A stretch of 64,000 nt of DNA from Bacteroidota bacterium (GTDB lineage: Bacteria; Bacteroidota; Bacteroidia; NS11-12g; UBA9320): the NCBI GenBank assembly GCA_016124755.1, contig WGNA01000011.1:1-64000 (forward strand). The letters run 5' to 3'. Both the position numbers and the translations under genes were made by a program. This document shows, in pieces, positions 1 through 59,502 of the stretch. Below the pieces are notes generated by a model. It was not told where the DNA came from. It was given only the letters and a program-made list of their open reading frames with translations, and did no database searches. Numbering within the stretch: position 1 is the stretch's first letter; every line of letters begins with the position of its first letter.

Positions 1-69
1 AAGGTTCGCTTTTCGAATTTCACGCAAAAGCTACAGGTTAACATATGGAAATGCCAACTATTCAATGAC

Positions 70-423
70 AACTCCGCGTCTCCAGCCAAATCAATTAAGA
101 ATCCGTTTATTCATTTTTCCGGATGTCTCAATCTTCGAATGACTCTGCGTCTCTGCGTGAAACCAATGATCATGATCGTATGGGAGTAATTCGATTTTCG
201 ATTTTGGCTTTTCGATTTTTGATGACGCTCCACCGCTCGATGTTAAAAATAAATCCGCAAACAACTTAAGGAAAACTCCGGCCTCCAGCCAAATGTCTTA
301 AGAACCTATAGTTTGCTCTTCCGCGAAATTATTCAATAAGAAGATGGCTCTGCGTCTCTGCGTGAAATAAATGATCATGATCGTCTGGGTGTAATTCGAT
401 TTTCGATTTTGGCTTTTCGATTT
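70..423. repeat. Degenerate direct repeat, two copies of about 150 bp, in an intergenic region
   Basis: Two copies, about 70-219 and 274-423, are offset by about 205 bp. The best-conserved part begins CTCTGCGTCTCTGCGTGAAA (143 and 348), continues with ATGATCATGATCGT, and ends in an AT-rich stretch with three TTCGATTTT-like words. The first part (CTCCAGCCAAAT near 80 and 285) is also shared. No ORF of note lies in 1-506. The CTCTGCGT words resemble a dispersed intergenic repeat type, which is a recollection and not checked. Nothing else is seen in this gene-free stretch. Confidence 0.6.
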
Positions 424-506: not shown

Positions 507-1370
507 ATGAACAAAACCCTTTTTGTTGTTGGCTTAATTTCAATTTCTGTTTTTCATGCTTCCGCTCAGGAGAAGAGCTTCCCGATCCGAAATGTATATG
601 TTTCATCGGGCGGATCTTTCTTTCTGGGTTATAACTACACCCTCGACGATTACCGGAGCATCGTTCCGCAATCGTCTATTCTCAAACAAGATCTTTCAGA
701 GTTTCACATGGAAGATAACCTTCCCGGAGGCGCAGTAAACTTTTCGATTCTGGCCGGAATCCCGATCAAGTCCGGCAACCGACCTTCCCGCGAATTACGG
801 ATCGGTGTAAATCAGCAATACAGTTACTCGCAGGGATTACTCACCGTATCGGATAAATACCGATTAGATACTTTGCATTCTGATCGAACCAATTCAATGT
901 TTTACATAGATTCGGTTCACGGACAAAACATCGACTTCAATCATGCATCAGAAATTCTGCAACTCGACGTCTCTTATATTTTCAGAAGCAACGGAGTTAA
1001 ACGTTGGTCATGGTTTGCCGGTGGGGGACTGCGAGCAGGATCATCTCTGAGAAACCGATTATCGATTGATCGTTGGGAAAACGATCGGATCGATATTTCC
1101 GGAAATGATGTTTATGGTTCCAATATCTGGGTTTTTTTTAATTCAAAAGAGATTGCCTCGGAAACATATAATCTAAAAAACTTTTTTGCACTTACAGCGT
1201 ACATTCCTTTGGGTGTCGATTTTAGAATCGGCAACGGAGCCGGGCTTTTACATAATACCCACCTTTTTGTGGAAGGTCGTCCGGGACTTAATGTTCAATT
1301 GGGAACGGAAAATGGGTCACGTGCATTTACCAATGCGGGCGGACAGTTCGGGATAAGGATGTCGCTTTAG
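507..1370 (+). CDS. Outer-membrane beta-barrel-like exported protein (hypothetical)
   Basis: A 287-residue protein with a clear signal peptide: a short basic start (MNK), a hydrophobic core to about residue 18, and probable cleavage at HASA|Q, leaving an N-terminal Gln. The mature part is rich in alternating aromatic and polar residues and Gly (for example the region with WSWFAGGGLRAG near residue 170), and it ends in GGQFGIRMSL. This pattern and length suit an outer-membrane beta-barrel of about 8-12 strands. No specific family was recognised. It stands alone, downstream of the repeat region and convergent with the toxin-antitoxin pair. The function is unknown; placement in the outer membrane is an inference. 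Confidence 0.7.
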   Translation: MNKTLFVVGLISISVFHASAQEKSFPIRNVYVSSGGSFFLGYNYTLDDYRSIVPQSSILKQDLSEFHMEDNLPGGAVNFSILAGIPIKSGNRPSRELRIGVNQQYSYSQGLLTVSDKYRLDTLHSDRTNSMFYIDSVHGQNIDFNHASEILQLDVSYIFRSNGVKRWSWFAGGGLRAGSSLRNRLSIDRWENDRIDISGNDVYGSNIWVFFNSKEIASETYNLKNFFALTAYIPLGVDFRIGNGAGLLHNTHLFVEGRPGLNVQLGTENGSRAFTNAGGQFGIRMSL

Positions 1371-1518
1371 AATAGAAGGATCGGACAGGTATTAGCGTTT
1401 TGCGGGTTTCTGAACTATTTAATATAAAGCAACCGCGACCTCAGTATTAGCGGAAAGGCTCGAATTTTTATGTTCAGCCCGCATTACGCTTTTCAAAATT
1501 GTGCGTTTTGCATTTTTT

Positions 1519-1827
1519 TCAGTACACCATTTTCTTGTCGTTCAGTTCTACATTAAATTTTACCCTTGCCCCTAAAACCTCAAAAACTTTCATGATGGTT
1601 GAGAACCGTGCATCTGTTGTACTGTTTTCAATTTTAGAGATTTGTGCTTTTTTTACACCGACAAGTTTGCCAAGTTGTTCTTGTGTTAAATGACGTTCTT
1701 TCCTGGCTTGTTTTATGGCATATCCCAGCAGATCAAGTCGGAGTTCATTCTCAAACTCGTCACGCTTTTTAGTTCCTTTTTTGCCGATATGTTTATCGGT
1801 CATTTCTTCTAAGCTGTATGTTTTCAT
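1519..1827 (-). CDS. HigA-like XRE-family antitoxin
   Basis: A 102-residue protein with an XRE/Cro-type helix-turn-helix at about residues 45-75 (LTQEQLGKLVGVKKAQISKI). An N-terminal charged extension of about 35 residues precedes it and a short C-terminal tail follows. Its start codon overlaps the stop of the upstream toxin gene by 4 bp (1824-1827), so the order is toxin then antitoxin, as in HigBA-type and related Gp49-like systems. In this family the antitoxin blocks the toxin and represses the shared promoter; the inverted repeat at 2202-2229 is the likely operator. The pair is complete and open. Assignment to HigA rather than another XRE antitoxin is by organisation. Confidence 0.85.
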   Translation of the reverse strand: MKTYSLEEMTDKHIGKKGTKKRDEFENELRLDLLGYAIKQARKERHLTQEQLGKLVGVKKAQISKIENSTTDARFSTIMKVFEVLGARVKFNVELNDKKMVY

Positions 1828-2174
1828 TTTTTCCTGCCTTTTTCGTTAAAGTATTGTACCATGAGTCTTTCTGCTTTTTCTATTTCTCCTTTTGGAGTTT
1901 TTCCAGTTTTTTTTATCAGACCGTGTGTTGAAATCACTAAGGTATCTTGTTCATCTGTCTTGTCCCAAAAAGCAAATAACCGGTAATGTATTTTGCTATA
2001 CATTGTTCTAAATTCCCAAATTTCGTTCTGAAGTTTCTTGAAAAGTTCCTTGTCGTCTGTGATTCTTGCTTTCCATATATTATAATAGATTTTAACCCTT
2101 GCTTTTTCGTCGAGCGCGTCAAGGAATTGCTTCGCATCTTCCAAAAACTCAACTCGAAATTTGTATTCTTCCAT
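1824..2174 (-). CDS. HigB/Gp49-like toxin of the RelE/ParE superfamily
   Basis: A 116-residue basic protein. The N-terminal part (EFLEDAKQFLDALDEKARVKIYYNI) is the typical two-helix start of RelE/ParE-superfamily toxins. The central beta part has the hallmark string IWEFRTMYSKIHYRLFAFWD, followed by LVISTHGLIKKTGKTP and a C-terminal helix, which matches phage-derived Gp49-like (HigB) toxins. These usually cleave mRNA on the ribosome; the Arg, Tyr and Lys residues in the strands and in the KKTGKTP loop are candidate active-site residues. It is the first gene of the two-gene operon and is preceded by a TAnnTTTG promoter box and an inverted repeat. No frameshift or truncation is visible. Confidence 0.88.
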   Translation of the reverse strand: MEEYKFRVEFLEDAKQFLDALDEKARVKIYYNIWKARITDDKELFKKLQNEIWEFRTMYSKIHYRLFAFWDKTDEQDTLVISTHGLIKKTGKTPKGEIEKAERLMVQYFNEKGRKK

Positions 2175-2195
2175 GCCATTTGGTTCTTGTCTTTA

Positions 2196-2203
2196 CAAAA
2201 GTA
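2196..2203 (-). promoter_or_regulatory. Candidate -7 box for the toxin-antitoxin operon
   Basis: On the minus strand the sequence reads TACTTTTG, an exact match to the Bacteroidota -7 consensus TAnnTTTG, 21 bp upstream of the toxin ATG. No convincing -33 TTG is seen at the usual spacing. It overlaps the edge of the inverted repeat at 2202-2229, as expected for an autorepressed operon. Confidence 0.5.
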
Positions 2204-2229
2204 AATGTTTCTCATTCGGGAAACATTTA
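2202..2229. promoter_or_regulatory. Inverted repeat, probable antitoxin operator
   Basis: A perfect 10-bp inverted repeat, TAAATGTTTC and GAAACATTTA, is separated by 8 bp. It begins 28 bp upstream of the toxin start codon and overlaps the -7 box. Position, symmetry and the XRE-type antitoxin next to it suggest autoregulation; binding is inferred. Confidence 0.6.
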
Positions 2230-2258
2230 TTTCGGGAATATTTTTTCTAACGAACGAC

Positions 2259-4058
2259 TTAGCGAATAAGCCTTAAGTTGCCGGTATAGCTCCGTGATTC
2301 TCCATTAGAAAAAACAATTTCCAAGAGAACCACATACACACCTGCCGGACATTGAGCGTGTAAATAATTACCATCCCATTCCGGATTTATAGATTTTTCA
2401 TCCAGAATCTTTTCTCCCCACATGTTGTAAATACGCATGTGAATTTGTTTGATCTCATTACCGGTAATTCTAAAAACCGGATTGTGCTCGTCATCGTTCG
2501 GACTAAAAGCAGTCGGGACATAAAAATAGGAAAGTGTGTCGGGAGTTACCGGAATAATGGTGTCTTCCGCGCACTCAACTATTTGAACCGGAAGTGTAAT
2601 ACTATCGGTATAACAGGTGTCTGAAGGTCCGTTCTGCGTAACAAATAATTTTACGTAATACGTTCCGGTTTTATGAAATAAATGTTTTGGATTTAATTCT
2701 TCACTCGTGTTTGAATCTCCAGAAGTTAAATCATTAAAATTCCATTTCTGGTAATTAATATTTTCAGGCCAGACCGATGAAGAAGTGAAGGAAACCAGAT
2801 GGTTCAAACAACTGTCGTGAAAAGTGAAACCGGCTCCAAGACTATCGCAGTTTCTTCCGGTAAATGACTTGGTAAAATAACTCTGAATAAAGTTCGGCAT
2901 GCTGTAATTGGAAAAGGTAATTCCTTCACAGTTTTTTAGAATAATTGCCTTTTCCTTAAAATTACAACCGGCTCCTACCACATTCGGATTTTCAATTACA
3001 TCTACCCAGGTTTTATTGCTCGAAAGATAAATTTTACCATCCGGCCCTAAGGATATTCCAGCATTAAAAGGCGGATTGCTTAACTCGGTATATTCATGAA
3101 CCACAGTTCTTGAATCGAGGAAAGATTTTGAATCGACCACATTTGTGAGATCAAACTGATGAACGTACTTCCCGTGCCAGCCGCTTGTTAAATAAAGAAT
3201 TTTATTATTAGGAGAAAAGGAAGCACCGTAATATCCAACAGAATCTTTATCATCAATTTCAAAGTCAGAAGTCACTTTTCCAGTCGAAGCATCAAAACTG
3301 AACATTTCCGGTTTGCGCGGATAAATGTGGTGATCAGAATATGTGAGCATGATAAGTTTTTTCCCGTCCGGTGAAAATTTCAATTGCCCTCTGGCCATGC
3401 TTTCCGGATAAATCGATGGTTTGGTTTCATACATAATCTGTCCGGTGTGCGAAATAACCGGATTGGGATCCAATCCATTCTGGGTGACGAGATACGCGTA
3501 AAAAGCGTCGGTTCGGTATTGATGTGTTACAACCCAGATATCTTCACCGTTTGTATGAAATGTTGCGGTAAGTTTTTCGCAAACCGAATCGATGAGCAGT
3601 TGAGCTTTTGTGGTGACATCCCCCAAGCCTGCATCTTTTGTCATGTCCACAATGGAATACCGGAAACCATTTTTCAACCGGTTTTCTGCATTGTCGGTTG
3701 TGAAAACATAGAACAGAGAATTACTTTTTGGTACCGGAATAATAATCGCTCCCTGCGAACTTGAACCGGGTATCGGGAAACTTTTTTGTCCGAGCCCATA
3801 ACCGTTCGGCATGGTTTCGTGTTTCCGGTTCCACACCGAATCCCCGAATGTATAAAACAAAATATTTCCGGATGTGTCGCAAATGGTGGCAGAAGCTTCG
3901 ATGGTGCCAAAATATTTTGCAGCCCGAATTACTCTTGGAGGCGAGCAGTTAAAATCCAATCCTGCGGAGTTGCCAAAATACCAAACGGCTGCCTGCTTCT
4001 GGCATAAAGCATTTAAAGAAAATAAAAGAAAAAGCCCAGATGCAAATAAATGCTTCAT
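2259..4058 (-). CDS. Secreted protein with PKD-like domain and gliding-motility-type (T9SS type B) C-terminal domain
   Basis: A 599-residue exported protein. The signal peptide ends near NALC|QKQA. Residues of about 25-400 look like repeated beta-propeller blades (LKFSPDGKKLIMLTYSD, GASFSPNNKILYLTSG, GISLGPDGKIYLSSN). A PKD-like domain follows around 410-500 (F-H-D-S-C, WNFNDLTSGDSNTSEELNPKH, YYVKLFVTQNG). The last 85 residues are a gliding-motility-associated type B sorting domain: YVPTAFSPNDDEHNPVF, MRIYNMWGEKI, WDGNY and CPAGVYVVLLE. Such domains direct export through the type IX system in Bacteroidota. The substrate or role on the surface is unknown. It stands alone on the minus strand. 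Confidence 0.85.
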   Translation of the reverse strand: MKHLFASGLFLLFSLNALCQKQAAVWYFGNSAGLDFNCSPPRVIRAAKYFGTIEASATICDTSGNILFYTFGDSVWNRKHETMPNGYGLGQKSFPIPGSSSQGAIIIPVPKSNSLFYVFTTDNAENRLKNGFRYSIVDMTKDAGLGDVTTKAQLLIDSVCEKLTATFHTNGEDIWVVTHQYRTDAFYAYLVTQNGLDPNPVISHTGQIMYETKPSIYPESMARGQLKFSPDGKKLIMLTYSDHHIYPRKPEMFSFDASTGKVTSDFEIDDKDSVGYYGASFSPNNKILYLTSGWHGKYVHQFDLTNVVDSKSFLDSRTVVHEYTELSNPPFNAGISLGPDGKIYLSSNKTWVDVIENPNVVGAGCNFKEKAIILKNCEGITFSNYSMPNFIQSYFTKSFTGRNCDSLGAGFTFHDSCLNHLVSFTSSSVWPENINYQKWNFNDLTSGDSNTSEELNPKHLFHKTGTYYVKLFVTQNGPSDTCYTDSITLPVQIVECAEDTIIPVTPDTLSYFYVPTAFSPNDDEHNPVFRITGNEIKQIHMRIYNMWGEKILDEKSINPEWDGNYLHAQCPAGVYVVLLEIVFSNGESRSYTGNLRLIR

Positions 4059-4285
4059 CTGTATTTGGTTGAATAGTGGATAGTAAACAGCCGAAATTAC
4101 TTTTAACTTCCGGTAAGCATTGTTTGTATTAAGTCACATCAAAAGCAAAAGTTTTTAATTGAATCGTTACAATTGAAACTGCAACGGAAAGGGAATTGAC
4201 TCGTCAGTATTTTTTCAACCTCATTAGTCTTAGCCGAATAAAGGTTTTTTCAACTCTAAAAATTAAGAGGCTCAGATAATTCGGA

Positions 4286-4840
4286 TTATTGATTTATGTA
4301 ACGAATTATTCGCAACTGCCCCAGCGTAATCCAACCTTGTCCCACCGCATCGCCTTTTGTTTTAATATTGATTTCTCTGCCATTGGCCATCGACAAACTA
4401 AAAATCCATCCGTTATTTACATATAAATTATAACCAATTTCAATGGTGGGTTGCAACACTAAAATTTTGGTATTTCCATAATTCGGCTTTTGGGTTGAGT
4501 CTTTCCAGTCGATGCTCAGATTCCAAAGATCGGTGCGTAATCCGGCGAACCAGCCTTGTGTGCAGAGCGCTTTTTTGTAATAACGATAACCGATGCTGAG
4601 TCCCGGACCCCAGCCGCGTTCATCATCGTTTAATCCGCTAAAATCTTTTCGGCGTGCGATGTTGGCAGCAATTCGTGCATTAAAAGCCGAATGATTTTTA
4701 TTTATCCATTCCGATTGAATACCGATCATGTGTCCGGCCGGATAATAATTATATTCAATTCCGAACCTGGGATTTTGTGCTTTCAGATTGGAAATGCTCA
4801 ATACAATTAAAACAAAAAATAAAAAGGAGAATTTCTTCAT
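4286..4840 (-). CDS. Exported hypothetical protein, probably outer-membrane beta-barrel
   Basis: A 184-residue protein from the ATG at 4840; a second ATG two codons upstream (4846) is an alternative. The signal peptide MKKFSFLFFVLIVLSISNLK-A|Q again leaves an N-terminal Gln. The mature protein of about 163 residues has beta-barrel-like alternation (FGIEYNYYPAGHMIGIQSEW, GLSIGYRYYKKALCTQGWFAGL, LQPTIEIGYNLYV) and ends in GQLRIIRYINQ. The size suits an eight-strand barrel. It is divergent from cysS with about 110 bp between start codons. No family was recognised. Confidence 0.7.
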   Translation of the reverse strand: MKKFSFLFFVLIVLSISNLKAQNPRFGIEYNYYPAGHMIGIQSEWINKNHSAFNARIAANIARRKDFSGLNDDERGWGPGLSIGYRYYKKALCTQGWFAGLRTDLWNLSIDWKDSTQKPNYGNTKILVLQPTIEIGYNLYVNNGWIFSLSMANGREINIKTKGDAVGQGWITLGQLRIIRYINQ

Positions 4841-4938
4841 CAGCAATAGGAATTAGAAAACCATCGAAAGATAACGGATTCTGTCATTTTTACGATGGAA
4901 CATCTCACTGTACTCCGGTTCAATGTTGGTCATTCCTG

Positions 4939-4946
4939 TATTTTTG
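4939..4946 (+). promoter_or_regulatory. Candidate -7 box just upstream of cysS
   Basis: TATTTTTG matches the Bacteroidota TAnnTTTG box and ends 5 bp before the ATG chosen for cysS (4952). No clear -33 TTG lies at 19-21 bp. If used, the transcript would be leaderless or nearly so, and the longer reading frame from 4895 could not be translated from it. Confidence 0.35.
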
Positions 4947-4951
4947 CCGAC

Positions 4952-6409
4952 ATGAAAACTGCACTAAAGGTCTACAACACCCTCGCCCGAAAAACCGAGG
5001 AATTCCAACCGATCAACCCGCCATTTGTTGGGTTGTACGTGTGTGGACCTACCGTTTACAGCGAAGTGCATATCGGTAATGTGCGAACCTTTACCTCGTT
5101 CGATCTCATTTACCGTTACCTTCTTCATCTGGGTTATAAGGTGCGGTACGTCCGAAACATCACCGATGTGGGTCACCTTCTCGACGACAACGAAGAAGAT
5201 AAAATTTCCAAAAAAGCGCGACTCGAAAATATTGAACCGATGGAAGTGGTTCAACGCTACACCGTGGATTTTCATAAAACCATGATGCTTTTTAACACAC
5301 TTCCTCCGAGCATCGAGCCAACTGCAACGGCTCACCTTATCGAGCAGATCGAACTCATTCAAACCATTTTGGATAAAGGGCTTGCGTATGAATCGAACGG
5401 ATCGGTGTATTTCGATGTGCTGAAGTACAGCGCGGATCACAATTACGGAGAGTTGTCGGGACGAAACATCGACGAGCTTTTGGTGAACACACGCGATCTC
5501 GACGGACAAGACGACAAGAAACATCCTGCAGATTTTGCCATCTGGAAAAAAGCAGAACCGCAACACATTATGAAATGGAATGCGCCGTGGAGTCTCGGAT
5601 TTCCGGGGTGGCACCTCGAGTGTTCGGTGATGAGTACCAAATATCTCGGAACCACTTTCGACATTCACGGCGGCGGTATGGATTTAAAGTTTCCGCATCA
5701 CGAATGTGAAATTGCGCAAAACGAAGCAGGGTACGGATGCGCCCCTGCCAAGTACTGGCTTCATACGAATATGCTCACATTCAACGGCCGGAAAATGGCC
5801 AAGAGTGAAGGCACCGGAGTTACGCCGAAAGAAATGATTACCGGAAATCATCCGCTCTTAACACAAGCCTACAGTCCGATGACGATCCGGTTTTTTATGC
5901 TTCAGGCGCATTATCGCAGCACACTCGATTTTAATAATGAAGCATTGCAGGCTGCGGAAAAAGGTTTCAGAAGACTGATGACGGCGGTCAAGGATCTGGA
6001 TGGTTTGAAATCCGGAAACACTTCCTTTTTTACTGTTGAAGACTGGAAGGAAGAATTGTATGCGGCGATGAACGATGACTTCAATTCACCGATTGCCATT
6101 GCTCAGTTGTTTGAAGGAGTTCGCCTGATTAATTTAATGAAAGATCAGGGAGAAACGCTTACCGAAAGCGATTTGGCTGCATTTACCTCAGCTTTTAAAA
6201 CATTTATTACCGATGTGCTCGGGCTCACAACAGAGGAAGAAAACGATTCGGGAGAAGTGGACGGATTGATGGATTTTATTCTTCAATTGCGAAACGAAGC
6301 CAAAGCGCGAAAGGATTATGCAACTTCAGATGAGATCAGAGATAAACTCAATGAATTGGGTTTTGAAATAAAAGACGGAAAAGAAGGAACCACGTTTAGT
6401 CGGAAATAA
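4952..6409 (+). CDS. cysS: Cysteinyl-tRNA synthetase
   Basis: This class I aminoacyl-tRNA synthetase charges tRNA-Cys with cysteine in the cytoplasm. It shows [15 protein letters not shown] (the zinc-binding Cys and the HIGH-type signature in its HIGN form), [10 protein letters not shown] and [11 protein letters not shown] (further zinc ligands and substrate residues), and KMAKSEG (KMSKS loop). The C-terminal DALR-like region ends in [17 protein letters not shown], as is typical. From the ATG at 4952 it is 485 residues, normal for the family. The frame is open from 4895, but the extra 19 residues do not look like family sequence and a TAnnTTTG box falls inside them. The glutaminyl cyclase gene follows 3 bp after the stop codon. 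Confidence 0.97.
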
Positions 6410-56417: not shown

Positions 56418-57941
56418 TTACTTCTTCCCGACTTCAATCATTACATACATCAAATCACCCGAATTTGAATCCGAATTAAAAGTGATCACATCGCCATCGG
56501 AATAATCAACGGTTAATGCATTTTTGTTTAAAACAGAATTAGCCTTTTTCTCATAAGTTCCGGAGGCTTTATTGATGCGCGAATTGATGTCTTGATAATC
56601 CAGTTCTTTTTTGCTGATCACCACGAGAATTCGATCTTCATTTCCAACTTCATCGGCCATCAGAGACTGATCTTTTGGAAACAATCGCGTTCCTACAATT
56701 CCGCAATACGGACTGTGTTTTTCGGTGTAGGGAAATAAAACATAACTGCTTCCGTCGGTTTCTTCTCCAAAAACATAAGTGTAACATTCAATGTTATTGG
56801 TGACTTCAATTTTAAAACGATCACCTTTGGTTACATCAGAAACCGTAGTGAAGAGATGATCTGTTTTGTGTTTCAGTTTGATATTTTTTTGAGAGGCATT
56901 GTCAACCAGACCGAATGAAATTTTTAACGCTTCCGGTTTTTCCGTGGTTGCATTTCCCATTGGATATAATCCGTATGCTTCTTTGGTGAAGAATTCAAAA
57001 TCTTTGTAACGAACCCAGCAAAATCCGCGATCTCCCCAATCTTCTCCCCAACTGTTCATGATCTGAAATGCGCCTCCTTCCAGATTGTCGTCGTACCCCA
57101 TAACACACATGGCATGACCTCCGAACTGATACATATTATAATCGCTTTGGGTCGGGTGCCACACTTTTTTACCGGTCATGGAAGACATAAAAGTTCCGCC
57201 CACCATCATACCGATTACCACCGGAGCGCCCTGAGCAATGTTCTGCCGGATGGCGTTAATATCGGTTGATCCCTGATTTTCCCATAGTCGTTGAAATCCT
57301 TTGGTTTTAAATTGAGACGCCTGTTGTAATTGTGATTGCGACGGTTTTCGGGTGCAGTCGTTCTCGTCATAACCGAAATCCCGCCACGGCAAAACACCTT
57401 TATTCAGCATAACTTCCATGGCATTTTGAATATAAGCGCCATTGCATCCCGGAAGAGAAATCTGGTTGTAAAGTGAAGCCGGACTGAAAGCCGATTGTGC
57501 CGGAGAATTACCGGTTGCGCGACTTTGCATAATGGATCGGGCGGCATATCCGCTGGCCCAGCCCACACAAGAACCCTGGCCTCCCTGATTTTTTCGGGGC
57601 GGACAAAATTCCTCCAAAGAAACCTTTGCCGGTAGGTCGTTTTTGTAACCGGCAGAAAGTGGTTCGTAGATTTCGCTTTTGGCATACATCTCCGGACTCA
57701 TTTCCAAACCTGTTGATAGCTGGAGATTTTCAGCCACCTGTTCCGTAAGATTCGGAAGTAGATTTCCTCCGAAGAAATACAGTCCTCCAATGATGACAAT
57801 GGCAGGAATCAATAGCTTCGGGCGTTTTATGAGAAAGGAAATCAATGCCGGCAAGAGAGCAATTAACGGATTACTCTTTCCTCCGGTACTCTTTTTTTTG
57901 TTTCCCGAACTTCCGGGATCATCTACCATTCGGATTGGCAT
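56418..57941 (-). CDS. Membrane-anchored papain-like (C1) protease with DUF4384 domain
   Basis: 507 residues from the ATG at 57941 (MPIRMVDDPGSSG). A Ser/Lys-rich N-terminus leads to one membrane helix at about 42-60. The C1 domain has the full active site: Gln119 and Cys125 (KNQGGQGSCVGWASGYAA), His276 (GGHAMCVMGYDD) and Asn296 (IMNSWGEDWGDRGFCW). A C-terminal domain of about 130 residues (VSDVTKGDRFKIEVTNNIEC, YVLFPYTEK) resembles DUF4384. The longer frame to 58028 adds 29 residues that do not fit. There is no pro-peptide of the usual kind. It is divergent from the SatD-like gene across the palindrome array. Confidence 0.9.
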   Translation of the reverse strand: MPIRMVDDPGSSGNKKKSTGGKSNPLIALLPALISFLIKRPKLLIPAIVIIGGLYFFGGNLLPNLTEQVAENLQLSTGLEMSPEMYAKSEIYEPLSAGYKNDLPAKVSLEEFCPPRKNQGGQGSCVGWASGYAARSIMQSRATGNSPAQSAFSPASLYNQISLPGCNGAYIQNAMEVMLNKGVLPWRDFGYDENDCTRKPSQSQLQQASQFKTKGFQRLWENQGSTDINAIRQNIAQGAPVVIGMMVGGTFMSSMTGKKVWHPTQSDYNMYQFGGHAMCVMGYDDNLEGGAFQIMNSWGEDWGDRGFCWVRYKDFEFFTKEAYGLYPMGNATTEKPEALKISFGLVDNASQKNIKLKHKTDHLFTTVSDVTKGDRFKIEVTNNIECYTYVFGEETDGSSYVLFPYTEKHSPYCGIVGTRLFPKDQSLMADEVGNEDRILVVISKKELDYQDINSRINKASGTYEKKANSVLNKNALTVDYSDGDVITFNSDSNSGDLMYVMIEVGKK

Positions 57942-58019
57942 ATTGGGGTAATTCTTTTGTTCTACTGCGATATTAAGAATGAATCGATAGCAAAGCATGA
58001 AAAATCTCCTGACAGAAAA

Positions 58020-58123
58020 TATCACCATATACAGCGATATTCCGGATTATCACCATATACGGTGATATTTTGAATTATCACCATTTACGGTGATATTTGA
58101 AATTATCACCATTTACGGTGATA
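58020..58123. promoter_or_regulatory. Array of four 20-bp palindromes at 28-bp period
   Basis: Units at 58020-58039, 58048-58067, 58076-58095 and 58104-58123. The inner three are perfect: TATCACC-N6-GGTGATA with centres ATATAC or ATTTAC. The first has two mismatches in its right arm (AGCGATA). The starts are exactly 28 bp apart, leaving 8-bp spacers. The last unit ends 7 bp before the ATG of the SatD-like gene. It is an operator array, probably for that gene's own product. Confidence 0.85.
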
Positions 58124-58130
58124 TTAGTAC

Positions 58131-58781
58131 ATGATAGCAATTATCACAGGAGATATTTCGGATTCAAGGGCATACACAGATCAGGAAGTCTGGATGGGGC
58201 CTTTGAAAAAATTATTTGCCTTGTGGGGGAAGTCTCCGCAGCGTTGGGAGATTTTTCGCGGAGATTCATTTCAGGTAAAAATTGATGATGCTTCAACTGC
58301 ATTAAATGCCGCCTTGCACATTAAAGCCTGTGTGAAATCATCGGCACCGAAGTCGGTAAATACAAGAGTTTCATTGCTCGACGTAAGGCTTTCGATTGGC
58401 ATTGGGGAAGAAACTCATTCGGCTAAAAAAGTCACTGAATCGAATGGAACTGCTTATCAGCGTTCAGGAGAAAATTTTGAAAACTTATATACTTTAGGTG
58501 TTAGTTTGGCACTGAAAACAGAATGGCCGGATTTCGACAGGGAAATGAACCTCTATCTGAAACTGGCCGGAATAATCATGGACAAATGGTCGATATCGTC
58601 TGCGGAGTTTATGCAGGTGATGCTGAAAAATCCTGAGTTGAGACAAGTGGAGATGGGGAAAAAGCTGGGAATCGGACAAAATTCGGTGAGCAAGCGATAC
58701 ACTACTTCTCAGGCCGGGACGATTCTGGAAGTTGACCAAATGTTCAGAGAAAAACTAAAAACACACCTGAAAACACTTTAA
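58131..58781 (+). CDS. SatD-like regulator with C-terminal helix-turn-helix
   Basis: A 216-residue soluble protein. It starts MIAIITGDISDSRAYTDQE, the conserved opening of SatD-family proteins, and FRGDSFQVKIDDASTALNAA and VRLSIGIGEE are further core strings. Residues of about 165-200 (MLKNPELRQVEMGKKLGIGQ, NSVSKRYTTS) form a sigma-region-4-like helix-turn-helix. The start codon lies just after four palindromes, so autoregulation is likely. A DUF3307 membrane gene follows by 10 bp. SatD homologues occur in other phyla with similar membrane partners, but no biochemical activity is certain. Confidence 0.85.
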   Translation: MIAIITGDISDSRAYTDQEVWMGPLKKLFALWGKSPQRWEIFRGDSFQVKIDDASTALNAALHIKACVKSSAPKSVNTRVSLLDVRLSIGIGEETHSAKKVTESNGTAYQRSGENFENLYTLGVSLALKTEWPDFDREMNLYLKLAGIIMDKWSISSAEFMQVMLKNPELRQVEMGKKLGIGQNSVSKRYTTSQAGTILEVDQMFREKLKTHLKTL

Positions 58782-58791
58782 CTAAAACCAC

Positions 58792-59502
58792 TTGACTTCA
58801 CTACTTTTAATTTTATTAGCCCACATAATCGGTGACTTTTTCCTACAGCCTTATCGTTGGGTTGAAGTTAAGGAAGCCACCAAAGGAAGATCGAAATACT
58901 TGTTCTACCACGTGGGAATTCACATCGTTCTGATGTTGCTCGCCGTAAAGTTTTTTAACTGGATCCCGGTTTTAATCATCGGTGTTTGCCACTACTTTAT
59001 TGACCTTTCGAAACTGTCTTTTCAAAAACAGAATACACGGGTTCAATGGTTTGTGGGAGATCAGATTCTGCATATTACCAGCATTCTGGTGGTGTGGTAT
59101 TTTTGGCATGATTCGCTCAACACCTGGATCGACGGGAAGATTCCGGATTACTGGCTGGCTTACGGCATCGGAGTTTTGTTTCTTACAAGACCTATGTCGA
59201 TTACAATGGGAGAGGTGTTAAAACCTTTTTCTCAGAATATTCCGGGGCAGAACGATCAGTCACTTTCCAAAGCCGGTCGGTACATTGGTATGCTCGAAAG
59301 GGTATTGGTCTTCGTCTTTATCACCGGTCAACATTGGGAAGCTGTTGGTTTTCTGATCGCGGCAAAATCTGTATTCCGGTTCGGGGATTTGCGCGAATCC
59401 AAACAGCGTAAACTCACAGAGTATATTCTGATAGGAACGCTTTTGAGTTTCGGTACAGCCATGGCAATTGCAATGGCTGTCGAATCTTTAAAATCGATTT
59501 AG
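58792..59502 (+). CDS. DUF3307 membrane protein
   Basis: A 236-residue protein with about seven membrane helices. The DUF3307 opening LLILLAHIIGDFFLQPYRWV contains Asp in the first helix, and YHVGIHIVLMLL, IGVCHYFIDLSKL and VGDQILHITSILVVWYF carry conserved His and Asp residues. The start is TTG at 58792, 10 bp after the satD-like stop; no ATG further on leaves the first helix. The pair is probably one operon. The 3' end overlaps purL by 4 bp on the other strand. DUF3307 function is unknown. Confidence 0.85.
   Translation: MTSLLLILLAHIIGDFFLQPYRWVEVKEATKGRSKYLFYHVGIHIVLMLLAVKFFNWIPVLIIGVCHYFIDLSKLSFQKQNTRVQWFVGDQILHITSILVVWYFWHDSLNTWIDGKIPDYWLAYGIGVLFLTRPMSITMGEVLKPFSQNIPGQNDQSLSKAGRYIGMLERVLVFVFITGQHWEAVGFLIAAKSVFRFGDLRESKQRKLTEYILIGTLLSFGTAMAIAMAVESLKSI

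Follow-up and report, generated by a model that had tools for sequence, protein, structure and literature searches.

A phased palindromic operator array upstream of satD homologs, very probably read by SatD itself

In the window (the whole stretch of DNA analyzed, 64,000 nucleotides of a Bacteroidota contig), a divergent C1 peptidase gene, a satD-like gene, a DUF3307 gene and a purL-like gene lie in a neighborhood with no defense genes. Ahead of satD stand 4 palindromic units with the consensus TATCACC-N6-GGTGATA and start-to-start steps of 28, 28 and 28 bp. The initial annotation had described 4 such copies at an exact 28-bp period, 3 of them perfect, the last ending 7 bp before the ATG at 58131 of a SatD-like gene whose product has a helix-turn-helix (HTH)-like C terminus. 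All of this held: the array is a direct reading of the sequence with unit 1 as a copy containing 2 mismatches, the 7 bases between unit 4 and the ATG are 58124-58130, and an AlphaFold2 model and profiles both give the HTH, although the match to the Pfam SatD family (PF16264) is weak. In the window, the distance from one half-site center to the next alternates: 13 bp within a unit, over N6, and 15 bp from unit to unit, over the 8-bp linker. Dyads are therefore present at unit centers and at linker centers alike. Coordinates are collected in Table 1.

Table 1. Features at the satD locus of the window, with the basis for each
Feature	Position	Strand	Basis and remarks
Operator unit 1, TATCACC-ATATAC-AGCGATA (TATCACCATATACAGCGATA)	58020..58039	.	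Direct sequence reading; right arm degenerate, 2 mismatches
Operator unit 2, TATCACCATATACGGTGATA	58048..58067	.	Direct sequence reading; perfect arms
Operator unit 3, TATCACCATTTACGGTGATA	58076..58095	.	Sequence; perfect arms; occupies the predicted -33/-7 spacer (promoter placement inferred)
Operator unit 4, TATCACCATTTACGGTGATA	58104..58123	.	Sequence; perfect arms; over the predicted transcript start
Candidate -33 TTTG element	58069..58072	+	Inferred; matches the Bacteroidota sigma-A consensus (PMC7366714)
Candidate -7 box, GATATTTG	58092..58099	+	Inferred; 1 mismatch to TAnnTTTG; transcription would start at ~58104
Second, weaker -7 candidate, GATATTAG	58120-58127	+	Inferred; would yield a leaderless mRNA
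satD-like gene, 216 aa	58131..58781	+	PF16264, AlphaFold2, Foldseek and family HMM matches
Palm/cyclase-type domain of the SatD-like protein	residues about 1-150		Predicted fold
C-terminal HTH of the SatD-like protein	residues about 155-192		Structure model and profiles; recognition helix Q183-N-S-V-S-K-R-Y190
DUF3307 membrane protein, 236 aa, TTG start	58792..59502	+	PF11750, 91.7 bits; co-transcription with satD predicted; partner conserved in homologous loci

The product of the divergent gene on the minus strand (56418-58028) is a papain-like C1 peptidase that also carries DUF4384. The longest frame of this gene begins within the array, so that the true peptidase start is probably further in. 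The array might also affect this gene, which is no more than a possibility.

The array is real, local and not due to chance. A search of the 64-kb window allowing 3 mismatches returns 9 matches against 1.95 +/- 1.36 expected, with units 2-4 as the only exact ones, and a period-free array scan of the upstream region scores 53.6 against a maximum of 16.2 in 20 dinucleotide shuffles. It is also unique within the 4.05-Mb genome, where no exact sites exist besides these 3. A genome-wide regulon of the palindrome was considered and rejected, as the near-matches inspected elsewhere in this genome, 20 sites with 2 mismatches, all lie within open frames of at least 80 codons (20/20).

A lack of palindromes upstream of other satD homologs would have refuted SatD as the binder of the array; palindromes are present. 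Homologs were taken from relatives, a phylum-wide PF16264 sample (the gene is present in 80 of 396 genomes), a class sample by protein, 80 named close homologs, and plasmid records. The de novo scan asks for palindromic half-sites repeated at any period from 20 to 36 bp in a 173-bp stretch at the start codon of each of 110 homologs of the phylum, and finds the best period to be 28 or 29 bp in 101 of them; in 98 of the 110 the score is above those of all 20 dinucleotide shuffles of the same stretch. As controls, 3 stretches were taken from each locus (far upstream, within the gene, and downstream; 325 in total); 28 or 29 bp is their best period in only 20 cases, and a score of 20 or more is reached by 79/110 satD upstreams versus 0/325 controls. 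In the 9 sampled genomes having exact matches, 21 of 23 exact sites are at the satD promoter.

Most arrays contain 3 units, with up to 8 in one locus (L102). Plasmid satD genes of Pseudoalteromonas, Agrobacterium and Sphingomonas parapaucimobilis are preceded by similar arrays at 28 bp, and haloarchaeal plasmid satD genes of Halorientalis, Haloplanus and Natronosalvus by similar arrays at 29 bp, with 2-3 units each. No array is detectable in about 1/10 of the satD homologs scanned, nor at the plasmid loci of Segatella (L224) and Sphingomonas insulae (L225). Within this sample, then, the array marks the SatD family almost universally, in the form of 2 to 8 palindromes set 28 or 29 bp apart in bacteria and salt-loving archaea. 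One contig labeled Alphaproteobacteria (L142, JASGCT010000118.1) has a typical Bacteroidota satD, promoter and array, and is probably a mis-binned contig of a metagenome-assembled genome.

One alternative is a tandem repeat with no regulatory role, either selfish or accidental (iteron-like, CRISPR-like, or made by slippage). In its favor, units 3 and 4 are identical, as they would be after a recent duplication. Against it, the 28/29-bp period is kept across phyla and domains of life despite sequence divergence, the control stretches give nothing, and the window has no adjacent Rep or Cas gene; the alternative is as good as eliminated. Plasmid iterons and a CRISPR array were rejected on the absence of Rep/Cas neighbors, the palindromic form of the repeats, and linkers of 8 bp rather than spacers of ~30 bp.

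The half-site varies by lineage with its register kept, and where the protein can be aligned with that of the window, the half-site is composed of TAT and a variable part. The variable part tracks the recognition helix of SatD, which is QNSVSKRY (residues 183-190) in the window. The main helix types pair with half-sites as QNSVSGRW with TATCG, QNSVSKRY with TATCACC, QS[GA]VSGRW with TATTGC, and QS[GA]VSRRW with TATTACC/GGAATA. Counted by the first 7 helix residues and 6 bases, QNSVSGR goes with TATCGT in 42/47, QSSVSER with TATCGG in 8/8, QSGVSGR with TATTGC in 7/7, QSSVSQR with TATAAG in 5/5, QAAVSRR with TATTAC in 4/4, QNAISNR with TATCAC in 2/2, and QNSVSKR with TATCAC in 2/3. The pair seen in the window is found again in Algoriphagus locisalis (L129), while other Algoriphagus have QNSVSGRW or QS[GA]VSGRW helices and TATCG or TATTGC operators. 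At the level of single positions, S, T or N at 185 goes with C at base 4 and A or G with T, leaving 2 exceptions in 113 C/T cases, both of which have N184-A185; at residue 188, G, E or D goes with G at base 5 in 83/89, and R, K, Q, N or H with A or C in 33/36.

Helix and operator are both inherited, which counts against this line of evidence. Among protein pairs at 60-70% N-domain identity, operator bases 4-5 are common to 514/592 pairs with the same helix code versus 88/758 pairs with different codes, but sequence pairs are not independent of each other. A tree-based independent-pair test is underpowered: base 4 has 3 supported pairs, concordant in nearly every case, and base 5 has 6, of which ~2 are concordant and ~4 have no helix difference. 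Genomes with 2 satD genes offer a cleaner comparison: they have 2 different operators, each fitting the helix type of its own paralog, as in one genome (G340) where TGTTTCA goes with RDQIWKRR and TATCGGCT with QSSVSERH.

The rival reading here has the array bound by an unlinked trans-acting factor, such as a global regulator, with SatD merely the regulated product. Most transcription factors do act in trans, there are no binding data, and SatD carries another domain. However, the sites are found almost only at satD, and the half-site tracks the SatD helix even between same-genome paralogs, which share all other factors, making a shared factor a poor explanation; we consider it very unlikely. 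Since the half-site follows the SatD helix both between congeners and between paralogs of one genome, we infer that SatD is very probably the reader of the array.

Promoters in Bacteroidota have TTTG near -33 (PMC7366714) and a -7 box, TAnnTTTG, located at -12 to -5 (PMC9723704). Besides the window candidates in Table 1, an exact TAnnTTTG ending 4 nt before the ATG is found at 12 of 110 loci, which is the commonest spacing (18 loci with 1 mismatch or none), and for the 12 loci leaderless transcripts are therefore predicted, with the last unit inside the promoter. The distance from the -33 TTTG to the -7 TTTG was tried as the cause of the 28-bp period; it fits the window and several relatives but is insufficient, since arrays reach 8 units and the 28/29-bp step is also seen in Proteobacteria and haloarchaea, which have other promoters. 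Since units cover the predicted -33/-7 spacer and start site, the natural reading is repression, which is not shown here.

The promoter placement also bears on whether the palindromes act as RNA, in the form of attenuator, protein-bound or riboswitch-like hairpins. The 125-nt stretch does fold at -36.2 kcal/mol (z -5.6), as any palindrome array must. On the other side, the predicted starts (58104 or the ATG) leave at most 1 unit transcribed, and none in homologs with the -7 box 4 nt before the ATG; Rfam matches are only to sub-threshold animal microRNA models; and the half-site letters track a DNA-binding helix. Action at the RNA level is hardly tenable on this evidence.

The SatD-like protein of the window scores 23.3 bits against PF16264 over residues 7-194, below the Pfam cut-off of 29. 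Relatives with ~45% identity to it (G251, G064 and G137) exceed the cut-off, and 68/70 aligned family members match PF16264. The window protein does show another mark of the SatD family, a DUF3307-type membrane protein as its neighbor. The AlphaFold2 model has a pLDDT of 96.4, and Foldseek aligns it in the Protein Data Bank (PDB) with GGDEF domains, class III cyclases, the cyclic-UMP synthase PycC and Cas10-type palms, with a best E = 9e-4 and TM about 0.4-0.5. Class III cyclases are also among the PDB profile matches, scoring E = 0.0016 with the SatD family and E = 0.011-0.04 with its N-terminal part. The C-terminal part resembles sigma region 4 and winged HTH profiles.

The predicted palm is like that of class III cyclases (Ma1120, Rv1900c) and GGDEF proteins, and profiles align D8 of the motif GDIxxSR, D45 of GDxFQ, and the vRiaIGiG strand with the metal-site motifs of cyclases. 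Over 188 SatD proteins, D8, S12, G44, D45 and G106 are almost invariant, D8 being kept in 183 and D45 in 186. SatD differs from the cyclases in having its palm fused directly to an HTH and at the positions of the catalytic residues, placed by motif similarity and not by structural superposition: in these 188 proteins the +4 and +8 positions after G106 are mostly I/V/H and E, with Asn absent from the common residues at the first and Arg present in only 21 at the second. The model thus predicts a nucleotidyl-cyclase/GGDEF-type palm joined to an HTH, with the catalytic Asn and Arg apparently lost. As the metal-type Asp residues are kept and the catalytic positions are not conserved, SatD would be a metal- and nucleotide-binding sensor rather than an active cyclase. 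We regard nucleotide and metal binding by the palm as likely, with the ligand inferred from the fold alone and no assay data on binding or cyclase activity.

Downstream of satD, 52 of 79 proteins match DUF3307 in Pfam; the partner can instead be a different membrane protein, about 245 or 110 aa long, sharing a G..ER / K...R / Y.L.G...S core. At loci L025-L052, a SatD with a WKR-type helix is followed by a membrane protein of ~105-115 aa with a DUF3307-like G..ER / Y.L.G...S core, mostly missed by the Pfam model. His and Asp residues are invariant in the N-terminal half of DUF3307, whose confident model (pLDDT 93.5) has no fold match in the PDB. At 5 loci (L124, L127, L128, L133 and L134, about 1000-5640), satD-DUF3307 and its array are inserted in a type I restriction operon, hsdS on one side and hsdR on the other, with hsdR matching PADLOC REase_I at E below 1e-269; at L146 and L187 the satD cassette follows hsdS and the next gene has no PADLOC match. 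The PADLOC defense library has no model for SatD or DUF3307. A phage origin was rejected, with no SatD/DUF3307 match in a phage collection and none in viral contigs, for which one tight alignment was used.

In our proposal, SatD itself recognizes the array, which serves as operator for the satD-DUF3307 operon. A SatD dimer would bind each unit via the C-terminal HTH, and adjacent dimers, 28 bp apart, would touch and fill the array cooperatively, forming a helical assembly wound about the DNA. Because units occupy both the -33/-7 spacer and the start site of the predicted promoter, the filled array would shut the operon off, a negative autoregulation capping SatD and DUF3307, and the N-terminal palm, probably binding metal-nucleotide, would set whether the assembly holds or opens. 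A predicted DNA-binding protein encoded beside its own nearly exclusive array is what an operator-array repressor should present. The analysis shows the array itself, how general it is, that it is tied to satD, that half-site and helix correspond, and a predicted fold. Binding, cooperativity, repression and ligand are inferred without binding or expression data, and on that footing a cooperative autorepressor, possibly tuned by nucleotide, is the likely function.

The initial annotation had likewise proposed that the SatD-like protein binds the array, which the helix/half-site match supports, and that a 28-bp step of ~2.7 turns suggests wrapping or a filament. At 10.5 bp/turn, 28 bp is 2.67 turns, and 3 steps make 84 bp or 8 turns. 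Wrapping stays an inference from geometry, as does our view that the protein assembly likely sets the 28/29-bp phase, which rests on the step persisting while half-sites, promoters and domains of life change. That annotation read the sequence correctly and also named the right binder, so far as this can be judged from sequence, there being no in vitro binding data; the cyclase-type palm, the near-universal array and the placement of the last units on a predicted promoter had not been seen.

Alternatively, the array might be a site of activation or an element of higher-order chromatin, with SatD polymerizing to activate or to build a nucleoprotein structure. Arrays of up to 8 units go beyond the needs of simple repression, and at some loci the last unit is 40-80 bp upstream of the ATG. 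Opposed to this, units overlap the predicted -7 box and start at many loci including the window, the classical position for repression, and an essential satD that is accessory in Streptococcus pyogenes, present in only about 71% of genomes (PMC11323703), better suits a repressor of something harmful. This alternative is unlikely, although activation instead of repression is not excluded. That S. pyogenes satD guards against something harmful remains a possibility only, and it is the sole hint of a toxin-antitoxin relationship, toxicity of the partner being inferred at most.

The autorepressor reading makes the array a variant of the autoregulated operator array. Toxin-antitoxin antitoxins, CopG/omega-type repressors and ParB-like proteins are small HTH or ribbon-helix-helix proteins that cooperatively fill repeated operators at their own promoters. 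Those have other repeat lengths and spacings, whereas SatD arrays are 20-bp palindromes at 28/29 bp and the protein has a cyclase-type domain. The C proteins of type II restriction-modification are autoregulators whose operator region drives a downstream nuclease gene. The likeness is satD-DUF3307 standing directly upstream of hsdR in the 5 type I operons; the differences are the type I system, an unrelated protein, another operator, and the restriction to a subset of satD loci. The unusual parts are the cyclase-type sensor and the phase shared across domains of life, with binding and repression inferred. SatD of the Streptococcus mutans sat operon belongs to the same family (PF16264), and streptococcal SatD is known from acid-tolerance genetics and as the S. 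pyogenes gene above. An operator array, DNA binding or a cyclase-type fold for SatD was not found in the open literature searched, subscription papers being outside the scope.

A bolder reading, which we hold to be less likely than not, makes SatD a new class of nucleotide-sensing DNA regulator in which a degenerate cyclase-type palm and an HTH polymerize on palindromes phased at 28/29 bp, from Bacteroidota to haloarchaea. It would guard a membrane effector, DUF3307 or its shorter relative, in a possible defense or stress module sometimes found in type I restriction operons and sometimes beside Pycsar genes.

With the autorepressor reading, SatD and DUF3307, a widespread uncharacterized pair, gain a testable function as a self-regulating switch with a readable DNA code. 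That code would make operators predictable from protein sequence and specificity swappable by 1 or 2 residues. The predicted cyclase-type domain suggests a nucleotide input, which if true would couple second-messenger chemistry directly with a repressor on the DNA, and an unusual cooperative assembly is suggested by the phase that bacteria and archaea have in common. Self-regulation of SatD may also explain how the S. pyogenes gene is essential though accessory.

Two plasmid neighborhoods were noted on the side. The array-less satD-DUF3307 of Sphingomonas insulae (L225, plasmid NZ_CP048421.1, 1-5429) adjoins a Pycsar effector and cyclase and a TIR-domain gene. On Agrobacterium pAt (L230, 1-5576), a satD with a 28-bp array adjoins a DUF4365 gene, an annotated antitoxin and a nucleotidyltransferase-HEPN gene.
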